From a virus: a DNA stretch of 45,651 nt. The notes below the pieces were generated by a model. The model saw nothing but the letters and a program-made list of their open reading frames with translations, did no database searches and was not told the DNA's origin. Made by a program: the position numbers and the translations under genes. Location: the IMG/VR virus record IMGVR_UViG_3300020183_000141, positions 1 through 45,651 of that record, one strand, 5' to 3'. Positions within the stretch are counted from its first letter, which is position 1; each line of letters starts with the position of its first letter. Shown here piece after piece: positions 30,498 to 41,327 of the stretch.

Positions 30498-32420
30498 ATG
30501 TACGAAGCAGAGAAAGAATGGATTTGTCCTGAAAATTTTCCAAATTTAAAAGGTTATAGTCATATTGCTATTGATTTAGAAACAAAAGACCCAGAACTTA
30601 AATCAATGGGATCGGGTGCTATACGAGGCAACGGCAACATTGTTGGTATTGCTGTATCTGTTGAAGGGTGGTCTGCTTATTATCCAATTGCACATGAAGG
30701 GGGTGGTAATTTAGATAATAATAAAGTTATGTCTTGGATAAAAGAAGTTTGTTCTGCTCCTAATACTAAAATATTTCACAATGCAATGTATGACGTATGC
30801 TGGCTTCGAGCAGCGGGAATTAAAATTAATGGAAAAATAATTGATACTATGGTCATGGCATCTTTACTTGATGAGAATAGACTTTGGTATACTTTAAATA
30901 GTGTTGCATTCGACAAATTAGGCAAAACAAAAAATGAAACTGCATTAAATGCGGCGGCACAGTCTTGGGGAATAGATCCTAAATCAGAAATGTATAAACT
31001 TCCGGCAATGTATGTAGGTAATTATGCAGAAAAAGATGCACAATTAACTTTAGAATTATACACAGTTTTAAATAAAGAAATAGAAATGCACAATTTAAAT
31101 AAAATATTTAATTTAGAGACAGATTTATTTCCATGTTTAATAGATATGAAATTTAAAGGTGTAAGAGTTGATATAGACCAAGCACAAGAATTAAAACAAA
31201 AATTAGTAAAACAAGAGAATGAATTATTATTAAAAATAAAACAAGAAACAGGGATAGAACCGCAGATTTGGGCAGCAAGAAGCATTGCAGAAATTTTTGA
31301 TAAACGTAATTTACACTACGAAAAAACCGAAAGATCAAAAGCACCTTCCTTTACTAAAAATTTTTTACAAGAACATTCAGACCCTATAGTTCAAATGATT
31401 GCTAAAGCAAGAGAAATAAATAAAACACACACAACTTTTATTGATACTATTTTAAGATTTGAACACAAAGGTAGAATACATGCAGACATTAATCCAATAA
31501 GATCAGATCAAGGTGGAACTGTTACAGGTAGATTTTCTTATGCTAATCCAAATTTACAACAAATTCCTGCAAGAAATAAAGATTTAGGACCTATGATAAG
31601 ATCCTTATTTTTACCAGAAATTGACCATAAATGGGGTTGTTTTGATTATTCTCAACAAGAGCCACGGTTGGTTGTTCATTTTGCGGCAGAGAATGATTTA
31701 ATTAAAGGAGATGCTTCTATAATAAATATTATAGAAAAATACAAAAAAAATAATGTAGACTTTCATAAAATTGTTGCAGAAATGGCAAACATTTCCAGAG
31801 ATCAAGCTAAAACAATTAATCTTGGTTTATTTTATGGAATGGGAAAAGCTAAACTTCAAGCAGAATTAGGTTTATCAACAAAAAATGAAGCTGAAGAATT
31901 ATTTAATCAATATCATGAAAACGTTCCATTCGTAAAACAATTGATGAGTGCTACTATAAATATGGTAAATGATAGTGAAACAGGATCGATTAAAACACTT
32001 TTAGGAAGACAATGTAGATTTAATAAATGGGAAGCAGATATATTTAAACGTGGGATTATGAATCCTGTATTTAATACAAGAGAAGAAGCAGAAGCTCAAT
32101 TTATAAAAGAATGGATGGAGATGTATCCTGCAGCAACAAGAGAAAATATAAAACCAAAAATAAAAAGAGCTATGACTTATAAGGCTTTAAACAAATTGAT
32201 TCAAGGTTCTGCAGCTGATATGACTAAGAAAGCAATGTTAGATTTGTATAATGAAGGAATTATTCCACATATTCAAATACATGATGAATTAGATATTTCT
32301 GTTAAAGATGACAATCATGCAAAAAAGATTGTTGAAATAATGGAAAGTGCCGTTACTTTGGCAATCCCCAACAAAGTAGACTATGAAAGCGGCGAAACAT
32401 GGGGAGATATTTATGATTGA
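30498..32420 (+). CDS. polA: DNA polymerase I family polymerase with 3'-5' exonuclease
   Basis: This 640-residue protein has an N-terminal DnaQ-like exonuclease domain with D26 and E28 (AIDLETKDP), FHNAMYDVCW at 93-102 and YAEKDAQLT around 176-184. There is no 5' nuclease. The polymerase domain has TVTGRFSYANPNLQQIP, motif A DYSQQEP (D383), motif B RDQAKTINLGLFYGMG (434-449) and motif C IQIHDELD (592-599). The position matching E. coli F762 is Leu442. It would be the phage replicative polymerase. An ATAATG start follows closely after the tiny upstream gene. The next gene begins shortly after its stop. Confidence 0.92.
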   Translation: MYEAEKEWICPENFPNLKGYSHIAIDLETKDPELKSMGSGAIRGNGNIVGIAVSVEGWSAYYPIAHEGGGNLDNNKVMSWIKEVCSAPNTKIFHNAMYDVCWLRAAGIKINGKIIDTMVMASLLDENRLWYTLNSVAFDKLGKTKNETALNAAAQSWGIDPKSEMYKLPAMYVGNYAEKDAQLTLELYTVLNKEIEMHNLNKIFNLETDLFPCLIDMKFKGVRVDIDQAQELKQKLVKQENELLLKIKQETGIEPQIWAARSIAEIFDKRNLHYEKTERSKAPSFTKNFLQEHSDPIVQMIAKAREINKTHTTFIDTILRFEHKGRIHADINPIRSDQGGTVTGRFSYANPNLQQIPARNKDLGPMIRSLFLPEIDHKWGCFDYSQQEPRLVVHFAAENDLIKGDASIINIIEKYKKNNVDFHKIVAEMANISRDQAKTINLGLFYGMGKAKLQAELGLSTKNEAEELFNQYHENVPFVKQLMSATINMVNDSETGSIKTLLGRQCRFNKWEADIFKRGIMNPVFNTREEAEAQFIKEWMEMYPAATRENIKPKIKRAMTYKALNKLIQGSAADMTKKAMLDLYNEGIIPHIQIHDELDISVKDDNHAKKIVEIMESAVTLAIPNKVDYESGETWGDIYD

Positions 32421-32422
32421 TT

Positions 32423-33082
32423 ATGGCATATTTAAATGCAAATATACCACCGATTTATTGTAAAATAAGAAGGGAGTATCTTTATGACTTACGAGAACAT
32501 CAAGGAGAAACTGAAGATTGTGTGGTCATTGGTATTGCAAGTATTCCAGGGCGTGCGATCTTATTTCATGCTTTACTTACGAATGGTGCAATATATTGGC
32601 GGCTTCCTATCTCTGCTTTTCTTCAAAGAGGAAACAGCAGTGATGTGCATAGCACACAAGTGGAACGTCCCGATATCGAAGATCTTGAGTTGTGGAATTC
32701 ATTTAGTTATTATCCTGCTGTTAGCACTTTTGATTTTTTAATAGGACAACGTTGTAGATATTTAGGGAAGGACAAAAAATTTATTCATGGCGAGTATTTA
32801 TTTACAATTGACTGGGCACATCCAGAACCTAACATCCTGGATACTGAACATTCCGAAATACCTGACCAACATAAGTGTGCTCATATTTTGGCTCTTGATA
32901 ACGGTAATTATGCAGCTCAACCTAATAATCGTATTCTGTGGAGTATTCCTAGCTTTACATCTTCAACACATTGGCCGGATTATAAAGTGCAAACTACAGA
33001 ATGGAATGTTGAAAAGGGTAAATGGCAATTAGAGGATACTGATGCTATGTTTTACCAAATAAATGAATCAAAAAAAAGTTAA
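32423..33082 (+). CDS. Hypothetical marine-phage protein (219 aa)
   Basis: The ATG at 32423 is preferred to a TTG two codons upstream. The protein opens MAYLNANIPPIYCKIRREYLYD and continues VVIGIASIPGRAILFHALLTNGA with WRLPISAFL, a beta-rich layout. It has Trp-rich C-terminal segments (ILWSIPSFTSSTHWPDYKVQ) and scattered Cys residues. I recognise it as a family recurring beside polymerase genes in marine phages, without known function. It has no membrane segment or enzyme motif. Confidence 0.6.
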   Translation: MAYLNANIPPIYCKIRREYLYDLREHQGETEDCVVIGIASIPGRAILFHALLTNGAIYWRLPISAFLQRGNSSDVHSTQVERPDIEDLELWNSFSYYPAVSTFDFLIGQRCRYLGKDKKFIHGEYLFTIDWAHPEPNILDTEHSEIPDQHKCAHILALDNGNYAAQPNNRILWSIPSFTSSTHWPDYKVQTTEWNVEKGKWQLEDTDAMFYQINESKKS

Positions 33083-33135
33083 TTGTATTAACAACCTTGC
33101 AGCTGGATGCTGCTTATTAAATCACTGTAAATGTT

Positions 33136-33741
33136 ATGATAATGAAGATTACAATAATAAGATATTTGATTATAGCTCTAGCAGCATTTGTATTAGGTAC
33201 TTTCTTCCCCAACCCCGCCGCCAAGAACAAGGCTCAGACTGAAGCAATCATCTGGGCCAAACAACTAGGATTTGGATCTCCTAGGTTTGAGTACTCAAAC
33301 AACAAAGAATTCATTACATCCCTTACCCACTGCATAAACTACTTAAATTTTAACATCCCAAGACGCGAAAGAGTAAATACAGAGCTAATCATAGCGCAGG
33401 CTATTGTAGAAAGTGATTACGGAAGATCACGTTTTGCACGAGAAGGTCACAATCTGTTTGGTATACGGGTGTGGTCAAAGGATGGAATGTTACCATTATT
33501 GCAACCTGATTCTATAAATTGGCGAGTTAGGGTCTTTAAAAACAAATGCGAATCTGTTAAGTATTACATTGAAATATTAAATACAAAGAGAGTATATGCA
33601 GAATTTAGAAGAGTTAGAGAAATAACATTGAATAAAAATCCTATTGCAATGGCAAAAACTTTAAATAACTTTTCTACAAATAAAGAATACGAAAAACATG
33701 TAATAGATGTAATTAATAAATTAAGAAATGAAACTAAGTGA
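33136..33741 (+). CDS. Glucosaminidase-type endolysin with N-terminal signal anchor
   Basis: This 201-residue protein has a hydrophobic N-terminus (residues 6-24, IIRYLIIALAAFVLGTFF) that could be a signal or signal-anchor-release segment. A Bax/FlgJ-like glucosaminidase domain follows with the catalytic Glu at E92 (AQAIVESDYGRS) and the conserved GHNLFGIRVW. It would cut the glycan strand of peptidoglycan. The signal segment suggests export by the host, so lysis may not depend on a holin alone. It overlaps the next endolysin gene by 14 bases. Confidence 0.8.
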   Translation: MIMKITIIRYLIIALAAFVLGTFFPNPAAKNKAQTEAIIWAKQLGFGSPRFEYSNNKEFITSLTHCINYLNFNIPRRERVNTELIIAQAIVESDYGRSRFAREGHNLFGIRVWSKDGMLPLLQPDSINWRVRVFKNKCESVKYYIEILNTKRVYAEFRRVREITLNKNPIAMAKTLNNFSTNKEYEKHVIDVINKLRNETK

Positions 33742-34183
33742 AAATTTTACATTAGATGAATTAACAAAGTCGCAAGAAGCAATACGACTTGGTATTCCAA
33801 ATGAACCAAATGATGAACATATTATTAATTTAATTTTACTTTGTAAAAATATTTTACAACCTGTCAGAGATCATTTTAAAATACCCGTATCTATTTCTTC
33901 CGGCTATAGATCAGCAGCGTTATGCGAGGCAATAGGTTCATCAGCGACCAGTCAACACACCAAGGGACAGGCAGCAGATTTTGAACTATTTGGCGTACAT
34001 AATAGAGAAGTTAGTGATTGGATCGTAAAAAATCTTGATTACGATCAATGTATATTAGAATTTTGGACTCCCAATGACCCTAACTCCGGATGGATTCATT
34101 GCAGTTATAATGACTCAGGCAACAGAAAATCTTATTTGAACGCGCAAAAATTAAATGGTAGAGTCGTATACACAGTATTATGA
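33728..34183 (+). CDS. Peptidase M15-type endolysin
   Basis: This 151-residue protein has the M15 zinc-peptidase motifs: SSGYRSAAL (58-66), SQHTKGQAADFE with H77 and D84, and GWIHCSY with H124. These match phage L-alanyl-D-glutamate or D-Ala-D-Ala peptidases of about 150 residues. It has no signal peptide. With the glucosaminidase upstream it would cut both the glycan and the peptide part of the cell wall. It shares bases at both ends with neighbours. Confidence 0.85.
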   Translation: MKLSENFTLDELTKSQEAIRLGIPNEPNDEHIINLILLCKNILQPVRDHFKIPVSISSGYRSAALCEAIGSSATSQHTKGQAADFELFGVHNREVSDWIVKNLDYDQCILEFWTPNDPNSGWIHCSYNDSGNRKSYLNAQKLNGRVVYTVL

Positions 34184-34413
34184 TACCTAAATTAAAACTT
34201 AGTCCTGGCATGTTTATTGATAATGTTCTTGGCATTTGTCCTGAATGTAAAGAAGAAGCATTTCTCGTTGCAATTGTACAAGATTATTATAGATGTACAA
34301 ATTGTGGTGAAGATACTAGACAATATATCAATGGAGTTATTAAATATTTAAAACTTAATGATACAGATAAAAATTATATAAAGAAATATGGCCAGAAAAC
34401 TAGCCCTAGGTAA
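34180..34413 (+). CDS. Small zinc-ribbon protein (77 aa)
   Basis: Four cysteines in two CxxC pairs (C20/C23 in GICPEC and C39/C42 in YRCTNCGED) form a zinc ribbon. The rest is short and charged. It overlaps the M15 gene by four bases and the basic 44-residue protein downstream. A nucleic-acid-binding or regulatory role is likely for such ribbons, but its target is unknown. Confidence 0.65.
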   Translation: MIPKLKLSPGMFIDNVLGICPECKEEAFLVAIVQDYYRCTNCGEDTRQYINGVIKYLKLNDTDKNYIKKYGQKTSPR

Positions 34414-34522
34414 CGGTAAATTTATACAACAAACCAATAAGAAACGTCCTGGACGTCATTCTAAAAGACCTAATAAACGTAATACTAGAAAGCCATATAA
34501 AGGTCAGGGAAGAAAACAATAA
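34388..34522 (+). CDS. Very basic small protein (44 aa)
   Basis: An ATG at 34388 inside the zinc-ribbon gene opens a 44-residue frame rich in Lys/Arg/Gln/Asn (KKRPGRHSKRPNKRNTRK), ending in GQGRKQ. The strongly basic sequence suggests nucleic-acid binding, for example a packaging or RNA-binding peptide. It overlaps the zinc-ribbon gene by 26 bases. The stop is followed by a promoter. Confidence 0.55.
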   Translation: MARKLALGNGKFIQQTNKKRPGRHSKRPNKRNTRKPYKGQGRKQ

Positions 34523-34523
34523 C

Positions 34524-34552
34524 TTGACAAAGTTATATTAATATCCTATATA
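34524..34552 (+). promoter_or_regulatory. Sigma70-type promoter
   Basis: TTGACA (34524-34529), 17 bases, TATATA (34547-34552), just after a gene stop and 26 bases before the ATG at 34579. It probably drives the micro-gene train to 36714. Confidence 0.6.
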
Positions 34553-34578
34553 TTAAGAAACAAACAAGAAAGGTACAA

Positions 34579-34749
34579 ATGACTGACTTTAATAAATACA
34601 AAAACATAACTGTTGATAATGACACTTATGCGATTGTAACAAAACTTCAAACTAAACTTAAACGTGATGTTAAGTTAAGTAGAAGCCAAGTAATTAAAAC
34701 TTTAGTTAAAGAGAAAGCAAGATTATTAAATGGCTCACTCACAAAATAA
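34579..34749 (+). CDS. Ribbon-helix-helix-like small protein (56 aa)
   Basis: An ATG at 34579 with AAAGGTACAA upstream opens a 56-residue frame (MTDFNKYKNITVDNDTYAIV). A strand-like start is followed by two helices (VTKLQTKLKRDVKLSRSQVI, then KTLVKEKARLL), the layout of ribbon-helix-helix DNA-binding proteins. It is the first gene after the promoter and could regulate it. The 3' end overlaps the next gene by 20 bases. Confidence 0.6.
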   Translation: MTDFNKYKNITVDNDTYAIVTKLQTKLKRDVKLSRSQVIKTLVKEKARLLNGSLTK

Positions 34750-35008
34750 TATAGAGACAAATGAAAAGCCGTTAATCCCAGAACAAAGACTCTGGAAAGC
34801 GGTGTTGTTACAGGCAATAGAAGACGCTTTTGGTAATAATGAATCACAAGTAAGCGAATTTGAGAGACGAATGGCGAGGGACTGGATGAAAGATTTTAAT
34901 ACAGACTTTGCAATCGTATGTGAAAATGCTGGTCTTAATCCAAAACAAGCTTTCTATAAATTTAAAAAATACAATTTAATACAGAAAGGGATAATTAATG
35001 AGCGGTAA
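34730..35008 (+). CDS. Conserved phage protein, possible HTH-type (92 aa)
   Basis: This 92-residue protein contains PEQRLWKAVLLQAIEDAFG, then ARDWMKDFNTDFAIVCENAG and a helix-turn-helix-like end (LNPKQAFYKFKKYN). It resembles a family of small phage proteins with an acid-helical N-terminus, whose function I do not know. A DNA-binding role is inferred from the C-terminal helices. It overlaps neighbours at both ends. Confidence 0.55.
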   Translation: MAHSQNNIETNEKPLIPEQRLWKAVLLQAIEDAFGNNESQVSEFERRMARDWMKDFNTDFAIVCENAGLNPKQAFYKFKKYNLIQKGIINER

Positions 35009-35171
35009 AATAATTTGTCCAAAATGTAATGGTAATGGTTTTGTATATGCTTTTAACCATGACGATAGGAAGAAACAACCGATAGATTGTGATTATTGTA
35101 ATAATCAAGGTGAAGTTGATATTACAGAGGATGTCATTAAAGATCTTGATTATGCGAGGCAATTACAATGA
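34998..35171 (+). CDS. DnaJ-type zinc-finger micro-protein (57 aa)
   Basis: An ATG at 34998, overlapping the previous gene's end, opens a 57-residue frame with CPKCNGNGF and CDYCNNQG (C7, C10, C31, C34), the zinc-binding half-motifs of the DnaJ central domain. The rest is acidic (EVDITEDVIKDLDY). It overlaps the next micro-gene by four bases (ATGA). Confidence 0.65.
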   Translation: MSGKIICPKCNGNGFVYAFNHDDRKKQPIDCDYCNNQGEVDITEDVIKDLDYARQLQ

Positions 35172-35278
35172 CAATATCTGGATATAAAAAAGCAATAGCC
35201 AAGTTATTGAAAGCATATCACAAAAAATGGGATTGTTTTGGAAAAGAAAGAAAGAAAAATGGATCTAAAAAATCATAA
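35168..35278 (+). CDS. Micro-protein, basic (36 aa)
   Basis: This 36-residue frame starts ATGA-overlapped with the previous stop. It is Lys-rich (KKAIAKLLKAYHKKWDCFGK) with one Cys, ending KKNGSKKS. The family is not recognised. Support is the overlap chain and the absence of gaps. Confidence 0.5.
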   Translation: MTISGYKKAIAKLLKAYHKKWDCFGKERKKNGSKKS

Positions 35279-35351
35279 ACCTAATTATTGGTTATTATTT
35301 TTAATAGTGTGTTGGTTGTTAATGATATTTACAATCATGATGTACAAATGA
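35259..35351 (+). CDS. Micro-protein with one membrane span (30 aa)
   Basis: This 30-residue frame overlaps the previous gene by 20 bases. A charged start (MDLKNHKPNY) is followed by one hydrophobic segment (WLLFLIVCWLLMIFTIMM). It would be a small inner-membrane peptide. Functions such as lysis control or membrane exclusion are speculation. Confidence 0.5.
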   Translation: MDLKNHKPNYWLLFLIVCWLLMIFTIMMYK

Positions 35352-35440
35352 TTCTAAAGATACTTAGAAAACTATCTTCTAAACTAGACCGTTTTGTTTG
35401 GTATTTAGAAATGAGAAGAAGGAATAAAAGAAACAAATGA
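35348..35440 (+). CDS. Micro-protein, strongly basic (30 aa)
   Basis: An ATGA overlap with the preceding membrane peptide opens a 30-residue frame with many Lys and Arg residues (ILRKLSSKLDRFVWYLEMRR). It could be an amphipathic, membrane- or nucleic-acid-binding peptide. The family is unknown. Confidence 0.45.
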   Translation: MILKILRKLSSKLDRFVWYLEMRRRNKRNK

Positions 35441-35505
35441 CTTTTATTATCATATTGATACTAGCGCTGTTGCTTTCTTACATCATGATAAGGTTGAATA
35501 AATGA
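35437..35505 (+). CDS. Micro-protein with one membrane span (22 aa)
   Basis: This 22-residue frame, again ATGA-linked, is almost entirely hydrophobic (TFIIILILALLLSYIMIR) with a basic end. It is the shortest gene of the train and is followed by another ATGA overlap. Very short hydrophobic frames also arise by chance, so confidence is moderate. Confidence 0.4.
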   Translation: MTFIIILILALLLSYIMIRLNK

Positions 35506-35897
35506 ATACTGATATAAAAGAAATAGATTTATCTTATTGGGGAGGGTTTATGGATGGAGAAAGCAGTATAAAGCTTTACAAAAGAGCCAAAAAAAATTCA
35601 ATTGGAAAAATTTATGATTGTTATGAACCTAAAATAGAAGTTACAAATACGGATATTTTATTAATTGAGCAAATGATAAAAACTTTTAAAATTGGTTATA
35701 TTTATTTAGATAAACCAAGAACAACAGAAAAAGGAACAATATGTAAACAAATAGCAAGATGGATTGTGACTTATCAAAACGCATATCATATTGCAAAAAT
35801 TATGTTACCTTATCTTAGAGAAGTTAATAAGAAAAAAGGTGCTGAGGACATAATTAATTATTACGAAACAAGAGTTGGAAAACCAAAAATAAAATGA
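35502..35897 (+). CDS. LAGLIDADG-like homing endonuclease (single motif)
   Basis: This 131-residue protein contains YWGGFMDGESSIKLY near residues 12-26, a form of the LAGLIDADG helix with the catalytic acidic residue (D18). The following region (YEPKIEVTNTDILLIEQMIK) resembles the strand-rich half of these enzymes. With a single motif it would act as a homodimer and cut a specific DNA site. It is linked by ATGA overlaps to the genes on both sides and so sits inside the translation train, not in an intron. Confidence 0.6.
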   Translation: MNTDIKEIDLSYWGGFMDGESSIKLYKRAKKNSIGKIYDCYEPKIEVTNTDILLIEQMIKTFKIGYIYLDKPRTTEKGTICKQIARWIVTYQNAYHIAKIMLPYLREVNKKKGAEDIINYYETRVGKPKIK

Positions 35898-36031
35898 AAT
35901 ATACTTTTATATTTTTATTATTAGTTAGTTGCTCAAAAGATATATCTTTTGACCCTACAACAACTATTGGTAAAGAATTAATAAAGTTTTTGTATAACGA
36001 ATCTACAAAAGAAGGACCGGTAATGGAATGA
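35894..36031 (+). CDS. Tiny lipoprotein (45 aa)
   Basis: An ATGA overlap opens a 45-residue frame whose start, MKYTFIFLLLVSCSKD, is a lipoprotein signal peptide with an LVSC lipobox (C13). The mature part is about 33 residues. An outer-membrane lipoprotein of this size could be a spanin component (Rz1-like), since no other spanin was found in the window. It overlaps the nuclease gene by four bases. Confidence 0.55.
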   Translation: MKYTFIFLLLVSCSKDISFDPTTTIGKELIKFLYNESTKEGPVME

Positions 36032-36714
36032 AATGGAATAAAATATACGAGTACCCAAAGTCTACGCGCTCCTTAGTCAAGGATGAAAGGCATTATGAGA
36101 TTGGATCCTTGAAGCTCCCTTCTGTGACCACAATCTTGAGTGCTACGGCAAGTGTCGAGAAGCGAGAGTCTTTGCAGAAATGGAAGGATAAGATAGGCGA
36201 GTTAGAAGCAGAGAGAGTCAAGCAGCGAGCGGCGAGTAGAGGCACTGCAATGCATAGTTATTTAGAAATGCATTTAAATGGTGAAAATTTACTAGATCTA
36301 ACCATCGAGGGGCTAGAAGCGAGGAGCATGGCAGAAACTATTATTAAACAAGGACTAGGTGATTTACAGGAAATATGGGGCAATGAAGTTGTCTTATACT
36401 ATCCAGAACTATATGCAGGACAAACTGATTTATGTGGTGTGTACCAAAATAGAGACAGTATTATTGACTTTAAACAATCAAATAAACCGAAGAAAGATGA
36501 ATGGATTGAAGATTATTACTTACAGGGAGCAGCGTATGCTACAGCTCACGATTGTATTTACAATACTAACATAGAACAAACGGTGATCTTAATGTGTACA
36601 CCTGATAATTATTTTCAAAGGTTTATAGTTAATGGACAAAGGTTCAAAAATTACAAATCAGAATGGTTGAGAAGGGTTGATAAATACTACAACTTAAAAA
36701 ATAGTGTTGCATAA
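36028..36714 (+). CDS. PD-(D/E)XK exonuclease (RecB/Cas4-like)
   Basis: This 228-residue protein contains GTAMHSYLE (H76), YPELYAGQTDL (D134) and IIDFKQS with D147 and K149, plus the downstream YLQGAAYA helix typical of this superfamily. It would degrade or trim DNA in recombination or packaging. The first 60 codons (36060-36230) are richer in G+C than neighbouring genes. The start is ATGA-linked to the lipoprotein gene, and a strong hairpin follows the stop. Confidence 0.8.
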   Translation: MKWNKIYEYPKSTRSLVKDERHYEIGSLKLPSVTTILSATASVEKRESLQKWKDKIGELEAERVKQRAASRGTAMHSYLEMHLNGENLLDLTIEGLEARSMAETIIKQGLGDLQEIWGNEVVLYYPELYAGQTDLCGVYQNRDSIIDFKQSNKPKKDEWIEDYYLQGAAYATAHDCIYNTNIEQTVILMCTPDNYFQRFIVNGQRFKNYKSEWLRRVDKYYNLKNSVA

Positions 36715-36721
36715 ATGTCAC

Positions 36722-36756
36722 AATTAAGGCAGAATTATGTTTTTTGCCTTAATTTT
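36722..36756 (+). terminator. Terminator after the nuclease gene
   Basis: A perfect 10-bp stem (AATTAAGGCA / TGCCTTAATT, 36722-36731 and 36745-36754) has a 13-base T-rich loop and is followed by TT. It lies just after the stop at 36714 and marks the end of the micro-gene train. Confidence 0.55.
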
Positions 36757-36766
36757 GCCACAATGT

Positions 36767-36904
36767 TCTACGTTTTTGATGTTAAATAAGTAATTGATTT
36801 ATATACACTTTTGTTAAAATCTGTAGAAAACGTAGACAAAACGTAGAGTGTTAAGTCATTGTTCTATATAGAGAATTTAGTACTTTTCTACGTTTCTACG
36901 GATT
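36767..36904. repeat. Iteron-like AAAACGTAGA/TCTACGTTTT cluster
   Basis: Five copies, some partial, of TCTACGTTT or its reverse complement lie within 138 bases: 36767-36776 (forward), 36827-36836 and 36838-36847 (reverse, adjacent), 36887-36896 (forward) and 36895-36904 (partial, overlapping the last). The surroundings are AT-rich. Clustered short repeats in both orientations fit protein-binding iterons of a replication origin, or operator sites. This stretch (36715-36962) has no gene. Confidence 0.5.
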
Positions 36905-36962
36905 TTTTCTATAAAAAATAAATTCATGTGTTAAAATATATAAAAAATCTCTAATATGTAGA

Positions 36963-37235
36963 ATGACAAGATTTGACTATGATTTATATAAGATATCTTG
37001 GGAAGATATATGTAGTGATTCAGGATGGGCTACTGATCTTGAATTTGACAGAATGAACGTAAGCCATTGTATTTCAATAGGTTTTATTTATAAACAAACT
37101 AAAGATTATGTTTGGATCTTTTCAAGCTATGAGATAGACAATCTGGGCGAAATTACATACGGAGATCGTACTGTAATACCCGCAAATAACATCAAATCAA
37201 TGGAGAAAATCTATGGCAAAAAAACCAAAGAATGA
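36963..37235 (+). CDS. Hypothetical protein (90 aa)
   Basis: This protein is not recognised. It is acidic at the start (MTRFDYDLYKISWEDICSDS), with two Cys residues, then a beta-strand-like middle (HCISIGFIYKQTKDYVWIFS) and a basic end. No clear ribosome site lies upstream; the iteron cluster is just before it, so it could be an autoregulated early gene. It overlaps the next small gene by 23 bases. Confidence 0.55.
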   Translation: MTRFDYDLYKISWEDICSDSGWATDLEFDRMNVSHCISIGFIYKQTKDYVWIFSSYEIDNLGEITYGDRTVIPANNIKSMEKIYGKKTKE

Positions 37236-37362
37236 AAGTATCCAAGATATCATCGATAGAATCGAAGAAGACCTTATAACTTTAAGGGATAAGGTTGATG
37301 AATTAGAAGATCACGATTGTGATTCTGATTCAGATTCGGATGATGATGATTCAGAAGAATAG
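37213..37362 (+). CDS. Small acidic protein with Asp/Ser tail (49 aa)
   Basis: An ATG at 37213, overlapping the end of the 90-residue gene, opens a 49-residue frame: a basic start (MAKKPKNESIQDIIDRIEED), a helix (LITLRDKVDELED), then an acidic low-complexity tail of Asp and Ser (DSDSDSDDDDSEE). Its 3' end overlaps, in antisense, the tail of the small terminase gene by 52 bases. The role is unknown. Confidence 0.5.
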   Translation: MAKKPKNESIQDIIDRIEEDLITLRDKVDELEDHDCDSDSDSDDDDSEE

Positions 37363-37856
37363 TTAATTTTTTTATTTTTAACTTCTTTCTTTAAATCATC
37401 TAATACAACACCCTCTAGGATCGGTGAGTACTCGTTTATGATTTCTTTCATACGAGCCTCTAACTGTTCTGCAGTAAGATCTTCTAACTTACCGGTCCTA
37501 ATAATCTTTTGTTCCACGTACAGCCCAGCAGCCTTGCCTCTAGCAACTTCAGCATTAACAGCAGCTGACCAAGCCTTTGATTCTCTTGCGTTGTCTCTAA
37601 GTTTTGCAAGTTCTGAAATGTGTCTTTCAAATGTAACATCATATTTTTTTTGATACTCCGTTCTTAGTTGTCCAATATATTGTACTACCAATGGATATCT
37701 TTTTGGGTTTTGTAATTCAGAAGCTCTAACTACAGCCGAATCTTGTTCGTATCCCGCAGCAATAGCACATTCTGTTGCAGTCTTTCTGCCTTCGTTTGTG
37801 ACCAACTCATATGCAAATTTCATTTGCATTTCTGTTAATTTCTTTGGTAATCCCAT
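37311..37856 (-). CDS. terS: Terminase small subunit
   Basis: The start at 37856 is chosen because MGLPKKLTEMQMKFAYELV opens the conserved DNA-binding block. An earlier in-frame start adds 44 unconserved residues. The 181-residue protein has GRKTATECAIAAGYEQDSAV and RASELQNPKRYPLVVQYI, the helix-turn-helix and linking helices of terminase small subunits, then a central coiled region. The C-terminal tail is Ser/Glu low complexity (SSESSSSESESES). It would recognise the packaging site and load the large subunit. It lies on the opposite strand from the large terminase, 5 kb away, which is unusual. Confidence 0.75.
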   Translation of the reverse strand: MGLPKKLTEMQMKFAYELVTNEGRKTATECAIAAGYEQDSAVVRASELQNPKRYPLVVQYIGQLRTEYQKKYDVTFERHISELAKLRDNARESKAWSAAVNAEVARGKAAGLYVEQKIIRTGKLEDLTAEQLEARMKEIINEYSPILEGVVLDDLKKEVKNKKINYSSESSSSESESESQS

Positions 37857-37894
37857 GACTAGACATTTAAGGTAATTTAGAGTAAAAAGCAAGT

Positions 37895-38122
37895 ATGCTA
37901 AAAGGAAAGATTTTAAGACAGATATTGGATAAGTTTCTGAAAAATTCAGAAGTTGCTGCAAACGCACGTGTACAAGTTTGTTTACCAAATGGAGAATTAT
38001 TTGATGTTACTGGATTGCAACTTATGGAAAATAAAATTATTGGTAACCGCGAATCTCATAGATTAGTCATTACAATAGATCGTGAAAAATGGACTATGGG
38101 CAAGGTTATGAAGAAGGTGTAA
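37895..38122 (+). CDS. Hypothetical protein (75 aa)
   Basis: This protein is not recognised. It reads MLKGKILRQILDKFLKNSEV with an early helix, followed by strand-like VQVCLPNGELFDVTGLQL and RLVITIDREKW. It is divergent from the small terminase gene, with a 38-base gap that must hold promoters for both. It overlaps the nuclease gene downstream by 34 bases. Confidence 0.5.
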   Translation: MLKGKILRQILDKFLKNSEVAANARVQVCLPNGELFDVTGLQLMENKIIGNRESHRLVITIDREKWTMGKVMKKV

Positions 38123-38490
38123 TTACTTTGAAACCCGAACGAAAACTTTGGCAAAAAGTTAAAAAATTTATGCCTGAAATATCGTTCACAAGGCTAGAAA
38201 ATTTAAGTGGTTTTGGTACACCAGATCTATTGGCATATAACAAAAACCATACCTTTTTTACCGTTGAACTTAAAGTGACTAAAAGTAATTCGGTAAAGCT
38301 TTCTCCACATCAAATTAGCTTCCACGTGAAACATCCACACAATACTTTTATTCTAGTTTCTTCTGAAAGAGACTCGTCTCTCAAACTTTATGAAGGCTCC
38401 AGCATCCTGCAGCTCGCCGCTTGCGGCTTGAAGCTTGAAGCTTGCTGCTTGTCGCTTGAGGCTTGCTACGAAAAATTCCAGAGCTTGTAG
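38089..38490 (+). CDS. VRR-NUC/Holliday-junction-resolvase-like nuclease
   Basis: This 133-residue protein has GFGTPDLLAY (D46), FFTVELKV (E60, K62) and KLSPHQISFH (Q75), the PD-(D/E)xK core of VRR-NUC and related phage nucleases. It would cut branched or other structured DNA in recombination or packaging. Residues after about 108 (LQLAACGLKLEACCLSLEAC) are encoded by the GCTTGNN heptad array, so the original C-terminus was probably shorter and repeat spread changed it. Confidence 0.6.
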   Translation: MDYGQGYEEGVITLKPERKLWQKVKKFMPEISFTRLENLSGFGTPDLLAYNKNHTFFTVELKVTKSNSVKLSPHQISFHVKHPHNTFILVSSERDSSLKLYEGSSILQLAACGLKLEACCLSLEACYEKFQSL

Positions 38491-38524
38491 CTTGACGCTT
38501 GCAGCTTGATGCTTGTGGCTTGGC
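38419..38524 (+). repeat. GCTTGNN heptad repeat array A
   Basis: Seven consecutive units of GCTTGNN (GCTTGCG, GCTTGAA, GCTTGAA, GCTTGCT and so on) run from 38419 to 38467. After a 15-base break, six more run from 38483 to 38524. The last two bases of each unit vary freely. The first block covers the 3' end of the nuclease gene, and the second block begins inside it. Confidence 0.8.
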
Positions 38525-38575
38525 GCCTGGGGCTTAGTTCTCTGTGGCCTAATAGCTCCGAACCGCCCCGGCATG

Positions 38576-39181
38576 TTAGTGTTTACCATATGCAACGTTG
38601 TGAACGTTGCGATCCCAGCATGCCCTGCAGCTCAAGCATTTGTTATCCTGCTCCGCTGCTGGGCATGTCTTGTTTTCAGTCACTACACTGGAGGTATAAG
38701 GCCAGAAAGTTGGCGGGTTACCGTCAACCTTAGTTGCTGAAATTCTTATAATTAAATTAGCTGGTACTTCTTCAGGGGTCACCTGTTGCATGATACCAGC
38801 TTCTCGCGTTGGTAACCAGTGATTAACATCTGGCGTGAGCTTACAAACTTTAAATATCTTCTTAAGGTGATCTAGTGATTGGATATCTCCTGAATCATGC
38901 CATCTGAACCATTTAGACTTGTGGCGTAGGATCTGTGCAGCCATTGCCTGGACCCATAATGGATGATCAATTGCTTTTAATCTTTTGTATTGCGCTGCCT
39001 GTACATTTTTAAATACATAACAACCCTTCAGAGCGTAGCAGCCGTGACAGACAGTGCCTGGAATCTTTGCAAGCTTGCTGCCTGTTTTACATTCCTTTGC
39101 AGGTATCCCGTAGCTCCAGCCTGGCATCTTGGAAGGCTTTGATAATGTGCCTGTTATTTGATCTAATTCTGTTACTTTCAT
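38576..39181 (-). CDS. GP88-family phage protein
   Basis: This 201-residue protein matches the phage gene-product-88 layout: MPGWSYGIPAKECKTGSKLA, a CHGCYALKGCY cysteine block, then RWHDSGDIQS, LPTREAG and a second Cys cluster (CPAAEQDNKCLSCRACWD). The CxxC-rich ends suggest metal binding. The molecular function of the family is not known to me. It overlaps the small gene upstream by four bases, and the 3' end is convergent with the repeat array. Confidence 0.7.
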   Translation of the reverse strand: MKVTELDQITGTLSKPSKMPGWSYGIPAKECKTGSKLAKIPGTVCHGCYALKGCYVFKNVQAAQYKRLKAIDHPLWVQAMAAQILRHKSKWFRWHDSGDIQSLDHLKKIFKVCKLTPDVNHWLPTREAGIMQQVTPEEVPANLIIRISATKVDGNPPTFWPYTSSVVTENKTCPAAEQDNKCLSCRACWDRNVHNVAYGKH

Positions 39182-39393
39182 TTTATCTCTTCAATAAGTA
39201 TATCAACCTCTTCACTATCTACACTAAATATATCTAATACTTCATATTCTGTATCTTTTTCTGTAATTCCATTTTCTAAAAATTCCTCCCCTTTTGCTTC
39301 TCTATTGCCTTTTATAAATTTCTTATCTGATATTGTTATTTTAGCATTCATATCAAATTCTGTTAATTTATTTATTAATTCTTTTACTTTCAT
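39178..39393 (-). CDS. Hypothetical acidic protein (71 aa)
   Basis: This 71-residue protein is MKVKELINKLTEFDMNAKIT, then a loop and an acidic end (VDSEEVDILIEEIK). The opening is typical of small phage proteins near replication or accessory genes. It has four bases in common with the GP88-family gene and a promoter just upstream (39400-39427). Confidence 0.6.
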   Translation of the reverse strand: MKVKELINKLTEFDMNAKITISDKKFIKGNREAKGEEFLENGITEKDTEYEVLDIFSVDSEEVDILIEEIK

Positions 39394-39399
39394 ATATCC

Positions 39400-39427
39400 T
39401 ATATAATCCCTTATTTAACTTTGTCAA
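39400..39427 (-). promoter_or_regulatory. Sigma70-type promoter for the GP88 operon
   Basis: On the minus strand: TTGACA (39427-39422), 16 bases, TATATA (39405-39400). Heptad repeats lie directly upstream of the -35 box. Confidence 0.6.
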
Positions 39428-39429
39428 GT

Positions 39430-39478
39430 GCTTGTCGCTTGCTGCTTGTAGCTTGCAGCTTGCGGCTTGGAGCTTGGA
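39430..39478 (+). repeat. GCTTGNN heptad repeat array B
   Basis: Seven units of GCTTGNN fill 39430-39478, with no interruption. On the minus strand they read CAAGC repeats that separate the 3' end of the tRNA-Cys gene from the promoter at 39400-39427. Confidence 0.8.
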
Positions 39479-39548
39479 AGTGTTGCCCGGAATCGAACCG
39501 GGATAAGAGGTTTTGCAGGCCCCCGCGTAACCATTCCGCCACAACACT
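39478..39548 (-). tRNA. tRNA-Cys (GCA)
   Basis: The minus strand from 39548 folds as a 71-base cloverleaf. It has a 7-bp acceptor (AGTGTTG/CAACACT), a D arm with GGTTA, an anticodon loop CTGCAAA giving GCA, a short variable loop and a T arm with CCCGG TTCGATT CCGGG. The discriminator base is T, typical of tRNA-Cys. The base pair next to the anticodon loop is a C-A mismatch, and no CCA is encoded. It would supply Cys tRNA in an AT-rich host. Confidence 0.85.
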
Positions 39549-39549
39549 G

Positions 39550-39586
39550 TGGAGGACCCGCAGCGCTTTAAATGCGCCACAGGTCC
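39550..39586 (-). ncRNA. tRNA-minihelix-like element
   Basis: On the minus strand, directly 5' of tRNA-Cys, GGACCTG pairs with CGGGTCC (7 bp, one wobble). Inside is a GGCGC/GCGCT stem with a 7-base loop ATTTAAA, and a TCCA end follows. This equals the acceptor plus T-arm of a tRNA without D and anticodon arms. It could be a degenerate tRNA remnant or a real tRNA-like RNA. Confidence 0.45.
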
Positions 39587-39624
39587 ATGTTATTTGTAAA
39601 ATATTGCGTACCATAATGTAAATA

Positions 39625-39660
39625 GAATACACGCTAGAATAAAATCCGTAGCGTGTATTC
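39625..39660 (-). terminator. Perfect 12-bp hairpin
   Basis: Arms GAATACACGCTA (39625-39636) and TAGCGTGTATTC (39649-39660) pair perfectly with a 12-base loop, 15 bases after the end of the minus-strand gene at 39676. A terminator or processing signal upstream of the minihelix and tRNA is likely. Confidence 0.55.
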
Positions 39661-39675
39661 CAAAGATTTCAATCA

Positions 39676-40092
39676 TTACCAACTGCAATCGTAGGCGATG
39701 TCTTTACCAGCATTTAGCTGTTCTTTACACCAATCTATGAATTTTTTGTCTTGTTTTTTATATTCCGTAACCTGCTCTTCTTGGAACTGTTGTCCCCAGA
39801 AAAAACCATCGGAAGCAAAGTAATCATAATAATTGTTCTTATATGCCTCTTCCAAACGCTCAACCAACTCTTTTGTAATTTTTACACCACCTTGCCCACC
39901 ATTAAAGCCAAGATGTTGTAAATCATTCATAGAGTTATTTTCTTTATCTGGTGAATGACTACCATTATTTTTATTTTGGTCTTTAAATTCTACAGCCATA
40001 AACTTTTGCAATCTTGCATGTTTACGCCAATAAAATTCTTCCTTAACTCTTCCTTCTTCATCTCTGAAGCCTGCGTATTGGTCTAGTCCCAT
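39676..40092 (-). CDS. Conserved phage hypothetical protein (138 aa)
   Basis: The protein opens MGLDQYAGFRDEEGRVKEEF and has YWRKHARLQKFM, DGFFWGQQFQEEQV and a final IAYDCSW. I recognise the pattern from small phage and mobile-element proteins of unknown function. It has no clear catalytic motif. A strong promoter lies 29 bases upstream. Confidence 0.6.
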   Translation of the reverse strand: MGLDQYAGFRDEEGRVKEEFYWRKHARLQKFMAVEFKDQNKNNGSHSPDKENNSMNDLQHLGFNGGQGGVKITKELVERLEEAYKNNYYDYFASDGFFWGQQFQEEQVTEYKKQDKKFIDWCKEQLNAGKDIAYDCSW

Positions 40093-40120
40093 ATTATACC
40101 TTTCTGTTAGTTTATATCCT

Positions 40121-40149
40121 ATATTATCCTACTATTATTACAATGTCAA
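40121..40149 (-). promoter_or_regulatory. Sigma70-type promoter
   Basis: On the minus strand: TTGACA (40149-40144), 17 bases, TAATAT (40126-40121), upstream of the gene at 39676-40092. The -35 box sits in a CAAGCCAC/GTGGCTTG hairpin (8-bp stem). Confidence 0.6.
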
Positions 40150-40171
40150 GCCACTTGTTGCTTGTGGCTTG

Positions 40172-40239
40172 GTCCCTGGGACTCGCGTGTCCCAGGGGTT
40201 ATTCTTAAACGATCGGATCCATTACACGTAACACGTGTA
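40172..40239. promoter_or_regulatory. Intergenic hairpins in the 40093-40382 gap
   Basis: This 290-base gap holds a GC-rich 9-bp stem (CCCTGGGAC/GTCCCAGGG, loop TCGCGT, 40174-40197) and a 7-bp palindrome TACACGT/ACGTGTA (40223-40239). It also has a CAAGC-type fragment at the left edge and promoters facing out in both directions. The hairpins could be terminators or operator sites. No gene is seen. Confidence 0.45.
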
Positions 40240-40321
40240 GCAGTATTGCTCTTTTATTTTAGTAATAACGCATTTGTTATTTAAAAAAATAATCCATAAG
40301 AATATATCCTATATAATCCTA

Positions 40322-40352
40322 TTGACATTAAAGTCAAGGTATGAAATAAAAT
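40322..40352 (+). promoter_or_regulatory. Sigma70-type promoter for 40383
   Basis: TTGACA (40322-40327), a 19-base gap and TAAAAT (40347-40352), with a weaker choice of AATAAA at 17 bases. It is 30 bases before the start at 40383, which has an AAAGAGGTATAAA ribosome site. Confidence 0.5.
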
Positions 40353-40382
40353 AATTCTAACTAACAATGAAAGAGGTATAAA

Positions 40383-41327
40383 ATGACTAAAGCAAGACTA
40401 AATACTGATATAAGAAAAAAGATTGGTGGTTTAATCTTATCTCATTTTGAGAACGAGAAAACTACTGAACTTGAAAACTTTGTATCAGCAAAAGAGGATA
40501 TTGATGTTGCTTACAATAGAGCATTTAAGTTAGCGACTACTATTGTGCAACGAGCATATCCAAAGAGTGATGTTGCAACCTTACAAGCATTTAAAAAAAA
40601 ATATGGCAATGCGTGTGATGTTGTAGCTAAAGACAGTTGTTTTTATTTTGCTAATACCGAAATGAAAAAAAATAATTATAGTGATGATGATGTTGCAGAA
40701 CATTTCAATTTCAAATTGGACGCAAGTATGAACGGACGATTTGACAGTATGGACTTTGGCATTGCATACTATCGTGATGAGTTAAAACAAAATGGTATCA
40801 ATCCAGAAATAACAATCCAAAACAAAGCACAAGACAATCGTAGCAATCCACATTGGACACAAGAGGTGGATAAGATTAAAAAATTTCTTGGCTACAATAA
40901 TGAGGACGGACTATATCAAGATTGGAAAAATAAATTTTCTCTTGATGTAATTGGTACAAGTTATTGCCGTTCAAGAACGATACCTTGTTTCAATAGTGAG
41001 TTTAACGAAATGAAAATGTTTAAACTTGCTAAAGAAAGTTTTGTTAATGCACATTACAATTGGGCTGAACATATTTTTAAAGATATGAGAGATGTTAATA
41101 ATGCTCTTAAAGATTATAAATATGTAAAAGACGCAATTGATTTATGTGGTGCATTGGGTTTAAATGTTAATGAGAATGAACTGCAAAGAACTGTTGGGGT
41201 ATCATTAACTATTTATCAACCTGAAAACTTGGCAAACCTTATTAAATCAAGACGAGCAAAACAAGATAACAGTAGTGTTATTGCTCAATTTAAAAAGGCA
41301 AGACAAGCACAAGTTGCATTAAATTAA
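40383..41327 (+). CDS. Hypothetical protein (314 aa), possibly nucleotide-modification associated
   Basis: The start is preceded by GAAAGAGGTATAAA. The protein begins MTKARLNTDIRKKIGGLILS and is helical and Lys/Asn-rich, with isolated Cys residues (about 74, 82, 196). The opening resembles Nmad5-type nucleotide-modification-associated phage proteins, but I cannot confirm this by eye. No catalytic motif is clear. It is followed by a promoter with an inverted repeat. Confidence 0.5.
   Translation: MTKARLNTDIRKKIGGLILSHFENEKTTELENFVSAKEDIDVAYNRAFKLATTIVQRAYPKSDVATLQAFKKKYGNACDVVAKDSCFYFANTEMKKNNYSDDDVAEHFNFKLDASMNGRFDSMDFGIAYYRDELKQNGINPEITIQNKAQDNRSNPHWTQEVDKIKKFLGYNNEDGLYQDWKNKFSLDVIGTSYCRSRTIPCFNSEFNEMKMFKLAKESFVNAHYNWAEHIFKDMRDVNNALKDYKYVKDAIDLCGALGLNVNENELQRTVGVSLTIYQPENLANLIKSRRAKQDNSSVIAQFKKARQAQVALN

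Follow-up and report, generated by a model that had tools for sequence, protein, structure and literature searches.

Why would a virus keep a run of very small genes joined end to start immediately upstream of an exonuclease, and what is an endonuclease gene doing among them? The question is raised by a window of 45,651 nucleotides, the whole of a virus record (IMG/VR IMGVR_UViG_3300020183_000141), in which seven frames of 57, 36, 30, 30, 22, 131 and 45 amino acids (aa) occupy positions 34998-36031 of the plus strand and lead into the exonuclease gene. The preliminary description of this DNA had listed seven gapless small frames running into a PD-(D/E)XK nuclease, and all frames, lengths and overlaps are as it described. 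When the window is compared with its relatives, which include the pelagiphages HTVC027P and 023Pt_psg01, the best reading is that the train is the form taken in the window by a hypervariable island located between a small zinc-protein gene and the exonuclease. The features are as follows, with related loci denoted by L numbers and families of open reading frames (ORFs) by c numbers; p values refer to permutation tests for variation biased towards the third codon position.

34579-34749, plus strand: gene for a 56-aa protein with a KYK(N/S) motif, the same motif being found in L022, L029 and L031
34730-35008, plus strand: ORF of 92 aa, the last gene before the train, with no Pfam or PHROG match
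34998-35171, plus strand: 57-aa zinc-binding-like protein with two CxxC pairs, left edge of the island, matched in 26 viral contigs
35168-35278, plus strand: basic 36-aa micro-gene, in 22 of 60 related loci without stops, p = 0.013
35259-35351, plus strand: 30-aa single-span membrane peptide, in 15 of 60 loci, p = 0.006
35348-35440, plus strand: basic 30-aa frame, in the window's lineage only, unproven as a gene
35437-35505, plus strand: 22-aa single-span membrane peptide, in 12-13 loci, p = 0.002
35502-35897, plus strand: 131-aa single-motif LAGLIDADG homing endonuclease, free-standing, supported by Pfam, AlphaFold2, Foldseek and dN/dS
35894-36031, plus strand: 45-aa lipoprotein with an LVSC lipobox, in 15 of 60 loci, p = 0.00005
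36028-36714, plus strand: 228-aa PD-(D/E)XK exonuclease, right edge of the island, phrog_298 exonuclease (E = 2e-48)

Junctions and coding evidence of the micro-genes

From the 57-aa gene through the exonuclease, six of the seven junctions are 4-nt overlaps that read ATGA, as had been pointed out for most of them, and the seventh, between the 36-aa gene and the 30-aa membrane peptide, is an overlap of 20 nt. Elsewhere on the plus strand of the window, such -4 junctions make up 5 of 38 same-strand junctions (Fisher p = 0.0004 against the train, with a window gene list made by hand from the ORF list). The longest run of ATGA-linked ORFs (20 aa or more) in the real sequence has six members and spans 1456 bp, whereas the maximum in 3000 dinucleotide-preserving shuffles was three, reached in 7 shuffles; the contention that the chain is hard to explain by chance was thus borne out. 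Translational coupling had also been proposed for the train, and the stop-start overlaps at six of seven junctions have the form that it would take; translation of the micro-genes is probably coupled by termination-reinitiation.

Relatives were collected by searches with the exonuclease, the lipoprotein and the zinc gene, which yielded 60 distinct islands extending from the zinc gene to the exonuclease; from the exonuclease search, 80 contigs were kept of more than 577 exonuclease-bearing contigs found. Island genes were identified with a simple script that chains ORFs and favours short overlaps, and therefore the overlap frequencies obtained from it are somewhat biased; our conclusions rest on the conservation of families and on DNA comparisons, not on those frequencies. 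No stop-interrupted copy was found among the homologues of the basic 36-aa, 30-aa membrane, 22-aa membrane (12 homologues among the 60 loci) and lipoprotein genes, for which pN/pS was 0.51, 0.35, 0.36 and 0.24, respectively, and a dedicated scan matched the lipoprotein gene in 23 contigs. Both comparisons that the preliminary description had suggested, one for frames broken in relatives with intact flanks and the other for conservation of frame, came out on the side of genes, with no broken copies and with change concentrated at codon position 3 in four micro-frames. By this evidence, of the five frames between 22 and 45 aa long, four are real genes, while the basic 30-aa frame at 35348-35440 is an orphan that has no homologue in any other of the 60 loci. 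The shortness of the frames, the lack of a database family for most of them and the orphan frame could be taken to indicate chance ORFs in A+T-rich DNA, but shuffles never reach the chain, and the frames are conserved, biased towards change at position 3 and free of broken copies; chance is therefore an extremely improbable explanation of the micro-frames, and for the four frames, leaving the basic 30-aa frame aside, it is already refuted. In a separate basic 47-aa gene (c7; L004, L006, L008 and L011), variation was 0.07, 0.06 and 0.07, with position 3 as low as positions 1 and 2, and this evenness across codon positions might reflect a constraint on DNA or RNA.

The genes at the edges of the island are more widely shared. 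At the left edge, the zinc gene is 71-100% identical in the nearest 24 of the 26 matched viral contigs. The protein had been called DnaJ-zinc, which holds in so far as it is DnaJ-like and has two CxxC pairs; its match to the DnaJ_CXXCXGXG domain (PF00684) scored 21.6 bits, below the gathering cut-off of 32.7, and it has two CxxC pairs, not four repeats. At the right edge, the exonuclease start ATGAAATGGAATAA contains stop codons in both alternative frames, and the overlap of upstream genes with the exonuclease is therefore -4, -14 or -1. Where 2 kb or more of sequence preceded the exonuclease, homing endonuclease gene (HEG) families were found in 63 of 72 loci with at least 50% exonuclease identity and in 1 of 18 below 50%. 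For instance, in the distant relatives L022, L029 and L031 the island is absent, and a KYKS-type gene is located 28 nt upstream of the exonuclease.

It had been proposed that the train could be an envelope-acting or lysis/exclusion cassette. A rival explanation along these lines would have the two membrane peptides and the lipoprotein act on the host envelope, for lysis or superinfection exclusion, with the nuclease as an accidental passenger. The LVSC lipobox that had been noticed in the 45-aa frame is indeed a conserved lipoprotein signal, its cysteine (Cys13) being invariant in 6 aligned relatives that carry LVSC or LLGC, and the membrane and lipoprotein genes are under purifying selection. 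In addition, genes for a glucosaminidase that has a hydrophobic stretch at its N-terminus (33136-33741) and an M15 peptidase (33728-34183) are located 1-2 kb upstream on the same, plus strand. However, the membrane peptides consist almost entirely of the membrane span and have no periplasmic domain, and the presence of any one of the 30-aa membrane, 22-aa membrane and lipoprotein genes in a relative does not depend on that of the others. In more distant relatives, the genes that directly follow the zinc gene encode lipoproteins with a similar CSK...DPTSTI motif. The lipoprotein was also considered as an o-spanin because of its lipobox, but no i-spanin partner was recognised among the window ORFs in a crude hydropathy scan, and the candidate was set aside. 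We consider an envelope or lysis cassette very unlikely; the idea draws on sequences of membrane type that lie close to genes for cell-wall hydrolases (33136-34183), and it is unsupported rather than refuted.

The LAGLIDADG endonuclease and the seat it occupies

The 131-aa protein matched PF00961 (LAGLIDADG_1) with E = 7e-7 and 30.5 bits (cut-off, 23.1), and its motif is YWGGFMDGES, in which Y12, G15, D18, G19 and E20 are invariant in 25 aligned homologues. The AlphaFold2 model (pLDDT 92) has an alpha-beta-beta-alpha-beta-beta-alpha fold with one LAGLIDADG motif per chain, and I-CreI structures ranked first in a Foldseek search with this model (TM 0.62-0.72); the likeness was found by fold only, as a sequence search for a solved relative gave none at E of 0.1 or lower. 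Both the Pfam score and the fold uphold the LAGLIDADG-like gene of the preliminary description. The ORFs on either side of this gene are complete, the gene itself is bounded by ATGA on each side, and a search of 34000-40500 against Rfam gave neither a group I intron nor any other element. The gene product is a free-standing I-CreI-like LAGLIDADG homing endonuclease, which would be expected to cleave DNA site-specifically. The dN/dS ratio was 0.17 between the window and L017 and 0.03-0.44 for HEGs across the compared pairs, values that fit retained function equally well as active homing. The PHROGs label for the family of this protein, phrog_5046, is HNH endonuclease, and the same label is carried in public annotation by HTVC027P gp25 and 023Pt_psg01 URG13070.1; because the fold and Pfam both give LAGLIDADG, this label appears to be a misnomer. 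A perfect 20-bp palindrome in the lipoprotein gene, TCAAAAGATATATCTTTTGA (35933-35952), was examined as a target for a homodimeric LAGLIDADG enzyme and discarded, since the coding sequence at these positions is kept in relatives though the palindrome is not.

A homing-type endonuclease is present in all 60 islands and is nearly always single. In 58 of them there is exactly one ORF of c1, c6, c12, c14, c21, c44 or c60, and the occupants are distributed as follows.

Single-motif LAGLIDADG: 28 islands
HNH/Endo VII (c6): 12 islands
GIY-YIG (c12): 6 islands, Pfam score slightly below the cut-off
Double LAGLIDADG (c14): 5 islands
HNH/Endo VII (c21): 4 islands
HNH_3 (c44): 2 islands
GIY-YIG-like (c60): 1 island, by motif only
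Endonuclease_7: 1 island (L088), E = 4.5e-17
PD-(D/E)XK protein of phrog_5018: 1 island (L181), with invariant E, D and DxK

The best structural match of the phrog_5018 family model, which is of moderate confidence (pLDDT 74), is the homing endonuclease I-Ssp6803I, and the PD-(D/E)XK gene of this family also precedes the lipoprotein gene in L055, L062, L063 and L067 and adjoins c44 in L020. Two enzymes are encoded in the HTVC027P version of the island, and no empty or broken island was found among the 60 islands of the clade. The borders of the 22-aa membrane gene are used in relatives by both LAGLIDADG and HNH families (neighbours c1, c6, c14, c21 and c44).

The families that occupy the island are concentrated there about 190-fold, with 58 occurrences in 108 kb inside and 1 in 352 kb of flanks, a flank count that covers the families found inside islands and would miss unrelated HEG families outside. 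The c59 family was considered as an outside HEG and discounted, its 45 outside matches being minus-strand terminase-small-subunit genes. The distance from the seat enzyme to the exonuclease has a median of 342 nt. When the LAGLIDADG gene was used for the search, 36 contigs also contained the exonuclease, which was downstream in 35 of them and mostly within 1.5 kb; another 21 contigs with related LAGLIDADG genes lacked the exonuclease, and therefore the LAGLIDADG gene is not confined to the seat.

Other cargo of the island is swappable as well and includes FkbM and other methyltransferases, a C5 DNA methylase, a 2OG oxygenase and a deformylase; the methyltransferase-type genes are at L004:2284-2949, L018:2380-2940, L012:1262-1954, L008:3324-4001 and L015:2725-4011. 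The C5 DNA methylase gene follows an HNH gene in the island, and the two are possibly a restriction-modification pair. Three further island proteins (L011:3286-4011, L063:3209-3931 and L086:35-769) have a terminase-small-subunit-like N-terminus to which a MUG113 (GIY-YIG-like) domain is fused.

Exchange at the seat and its possible causes

Parsimony on the exonuclease tree gave at least 20 changes of HEG family; the tree is a quick one with many weak branches, and several of the switches nevertheless fall on near-identical tips. For instance, the HEG family differs within L014/L017, L018/L056 and L004/L005-L006, whose exonucleases are near-identical. L014 and L017 are 96-98% identical on either side of the exchanged segment, with homology lost at the c9 stop/start TTACATTAATG and back at the exonuclease start, and between these breakpoints L014 has an HNH gene, a 20-aa membrane frame and a 16-aa frame, whereas L017 has a 20-aa membrane frame and the LAGLIDADG gene. 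The preliminary description had supposed that the nuclease is locked into the operon; on the contrary, with at least 20 family switches and base-precise swaps, it is the most exchangeable item.

Homology resumed within 3 nt of a start codon at 41% of 97 breakpoints, compared with 2% at random, and was lost within 3 nt of a stop at 28% of 130 breakpoints, compared with 3% at random, the breakpoints having been taken across all pairs and not being fully independent of one another. Here the start of a gene reads ATGA or follows TAATG and thereby also terminates the preceding gene; the clustering of breakpoints at start and stop codons may derive in part from these ATGA/TAATG starts and from the stops at the exonuclease start. 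The lipoprotein gene has the start ATGAAAT, as in the exonuclease, and this shared start bounds the presence or absence of the lipoprotein gene (L078/L079). In several pairs the HEG was less diverged at synonymous sites than the exonuclease, for instance 0.39 versus 0.80 for L014-L058 and 0.18 versus 0.39 for L006-L008; in some others (L007-L008, L064-L073) the HEG was the more diverged of the two.

A probable recent exchange was also observed at the seat of the window itself:

32334-37541, no strand assigned: near-identical block spanning 5.2 kb or more, differing at 3 sites from contig 3300021093_001231 (99.9% identical)

Left of 32,334, within and beyond the polymerase gene, identity to this contig is 60-86%, and about 80% next to the block, and a third contig, from a separate metagenome, matches the sequence of 3300021093_001231 across 32,334. 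At the right end of the block, an exact-pattern scan matched just contig 3300021093_001231, which is 7.7 kb long and ends at window position 37541. The block fits what co-conversion around a HEG would leave, and the jump in identity at 32,334 could be due to recombination or to a chimeric assembly of the window. Further to the right, arrays of the 7-bp unit AGCTTGN at 38419-38526 and 39429-39476 flank a 0.9-kb stretch, and the second array directly abuts a tRNA-Cys gene (39475-39548, minus strand); AAGCTTGAAGCTTG had 10 matches at up to 2 mismatches, compared with 0.7 expected. In pelagiphage HTVC022P, tRNA-Cys has been reported as the integration site (PMC12753301).

We think it likely, judging from the sequence comparisons, that free-standing homing endonucleases compete and replace one another at the coupled stop-start junctions of a single seat. 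Tiny phage genes would be chained by stop-start overlaps with one seat taken by such an enzyme, which in co-infection would cut relatives that lack a HEG or are differently armed; repair from the carrier would then copy the enzyme together with flanking DNA and displace the resident enzyme, and invaders would persist only when they land between genes. Since a start codon doubles as the stop of the preceding gene, a cassette ending in-frame would leave the chain intact. This proposal accounts for the localisation, the variability, the junction precision and the exchange. The absence of empty seats speaks against it, since repeated rounds of invasion, decay and loss should leave some seats empty or broken, and the near-constant single occupancy and the low dN/dS leave room for an endonuclease that is used beside the exonuclease.

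In the latter case, the phage would need a site- or structure-specific endonuclease by its exonuclease, for the breakdown of host DNA, DNA debranching or harm to competing phages, and any family would serve; the swaps would then be non-orthologous replacements under selection rather than drive. Occupation of 60 of 60 islands, nearly always by one enzyme and all intact, is consistent with this, as are the strong purifying selection, the exonuclease that is always near and those occupants that belong to the Endo VII type or have folds reminiscent of Holliday-junction resolvases. Furthermore, interference competition by a homing endonuclease has been demonstrated for PhiPA3 gp210 (PMC11620839). 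However, the distant phages described above share the exonuclease with an adjacent HEG in just one of 18 loci and in none of L022, L029 and L031. The notion that the seat provides the sole resolvase of the phage is weakened by a separate nuclease-like protein encoded at 38089-38490, which has weak similarity to Holliday-junction resolvase families. In addition, LAGLIDADG enzymes are not known to act in DNA debranching. Domestication of this kind is thus unlikely in our opinion, and the same caution applies to a combined possibility, which we put forward tentatively, that an obligatory endonuclease socket is coupled to the exonuclease and has recruited four unrelated folds by junction-precise exchange, with drive and function fused, the enzyme serving to degrade the DNA of the host or of rivals or to promote recombination. 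Homing and usefulness to the phage are not exclusive, since an enzyme that damages rivals, by analogy with PhiPA3 gp210 (PMC11620839), would be both.

Alternatively, the island may be a plain compact operon shaped by mosaic illegitimate recombination at gene borders and by selection, in which nucleases are one accessory kind. The swapping of methyltransferases, C5 DNA methylase, 2OG oxygenase and deformylase would agree with this, and the overlap spectrum is alike at non-HEG and HEG junctions (-4 overlaps, 45% and 54%). It would leave unexplained why every island has one homing-type nuclease, unlike any other cargo, and why HEG families are so concentrated in the island, and we find it decidedly unlikely. 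Competition among homing endonucleases for the seat remains our preferred explanation.

Significance and relation to known systems

Phage homing endonucleases have usually been studied singly, and here one address can be recognised across many viral contigs as well as in HTVC027P, a cultured SAR11 phage. At least five unrelated endonuclease families replace one another at this seat, with no empty seat among the islands examined, which suggests that selfish cutters compete for a single genomic seat in phages related to SAR11 phages and makes testable both the mutual displacement of HEGs and the distinction between selfish HEGs and those useful to the phage. The start-codon-precise edges would be a way for a compact operon to take in genes while the translation of neighbours is kept, and four micro-genes of 22-45 aa, of a kind often skipped by annotation, are conserved. 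No report of HEGs at this locus in pelagiphages was found in the open-access literature.

The enzymes of the seat have recognisable counterparts. I-CreI, a homodimeric LAGLIDADG enzyme, has the fold and motif of the 131-aa enzyme of the window, and I-Ssp6803I, a PD-(D/E)XK homing endonuclease, has those of the phrog_5018 occupant. Both are intron-encoded, whereas the island enzymes come from free-standing genes of phages and share 16-27% identity with these two. The paper on the HTVC023P-type genome does not mention endonucleases (PMC9599517).

Free-standing HEGs of T4, HEG islands of ICP1 and a HEG between spanin genes are precedents for what is described here. In T4, mobE is a free-standing HEG between nrdA and nrdB, and its start overlaps the upstream stop (UAAUGA), which was taken as suggesting translational coupling (PMC2988022). 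As with the seg and mob genes of T4, the HEGs of the island are outside introns and inteins, between conserved genes and beside a gene of DNA metabolism, and they are variable among relatives, with several families within one phage group. In contrast, T4 has HNH and GIY-YIG enzymes at dispersed genomic positions, whereas here nearly all copies are at one seat, where four nuclease folds including LAGLIDADG and PD-(D/E)XK alternate within a train of genes of 20-60 aa. PhiPA3 gp210 is similar in that a phage homing endonuclease harms a co-infecting phage, an effect that we infer for the island enzymes; it differs in being an intron-encoded HNH enzyme of a jumbo phage for which the effect was shown experimentally (PMC11620839).

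In one family of two-component spanins, a HEG is inserted between the spanin genes, and there, as here, two small overlapping genes both stay functional although a HEG has been inserted or lost where they meet (PMC6139136); that example stands alone, concerns spanin genes and shows neither a recurrent seat nor turnover of families. Finally, in vibriophage ICP1 and other phages, HEG islands are located near essential genes, and highly identical blocks shared by phages that differ elsewhere, comparable to the block found in the window, are thought to have been moved by HEG activity (PMC10448857). The HEGs of ICP1 bracket blocks of more than 10 kb, whereas the single HEG of the window is enclosed by its block of 5.2 kb or more, and the edges of the cassettes are resolved to start and stop codons.
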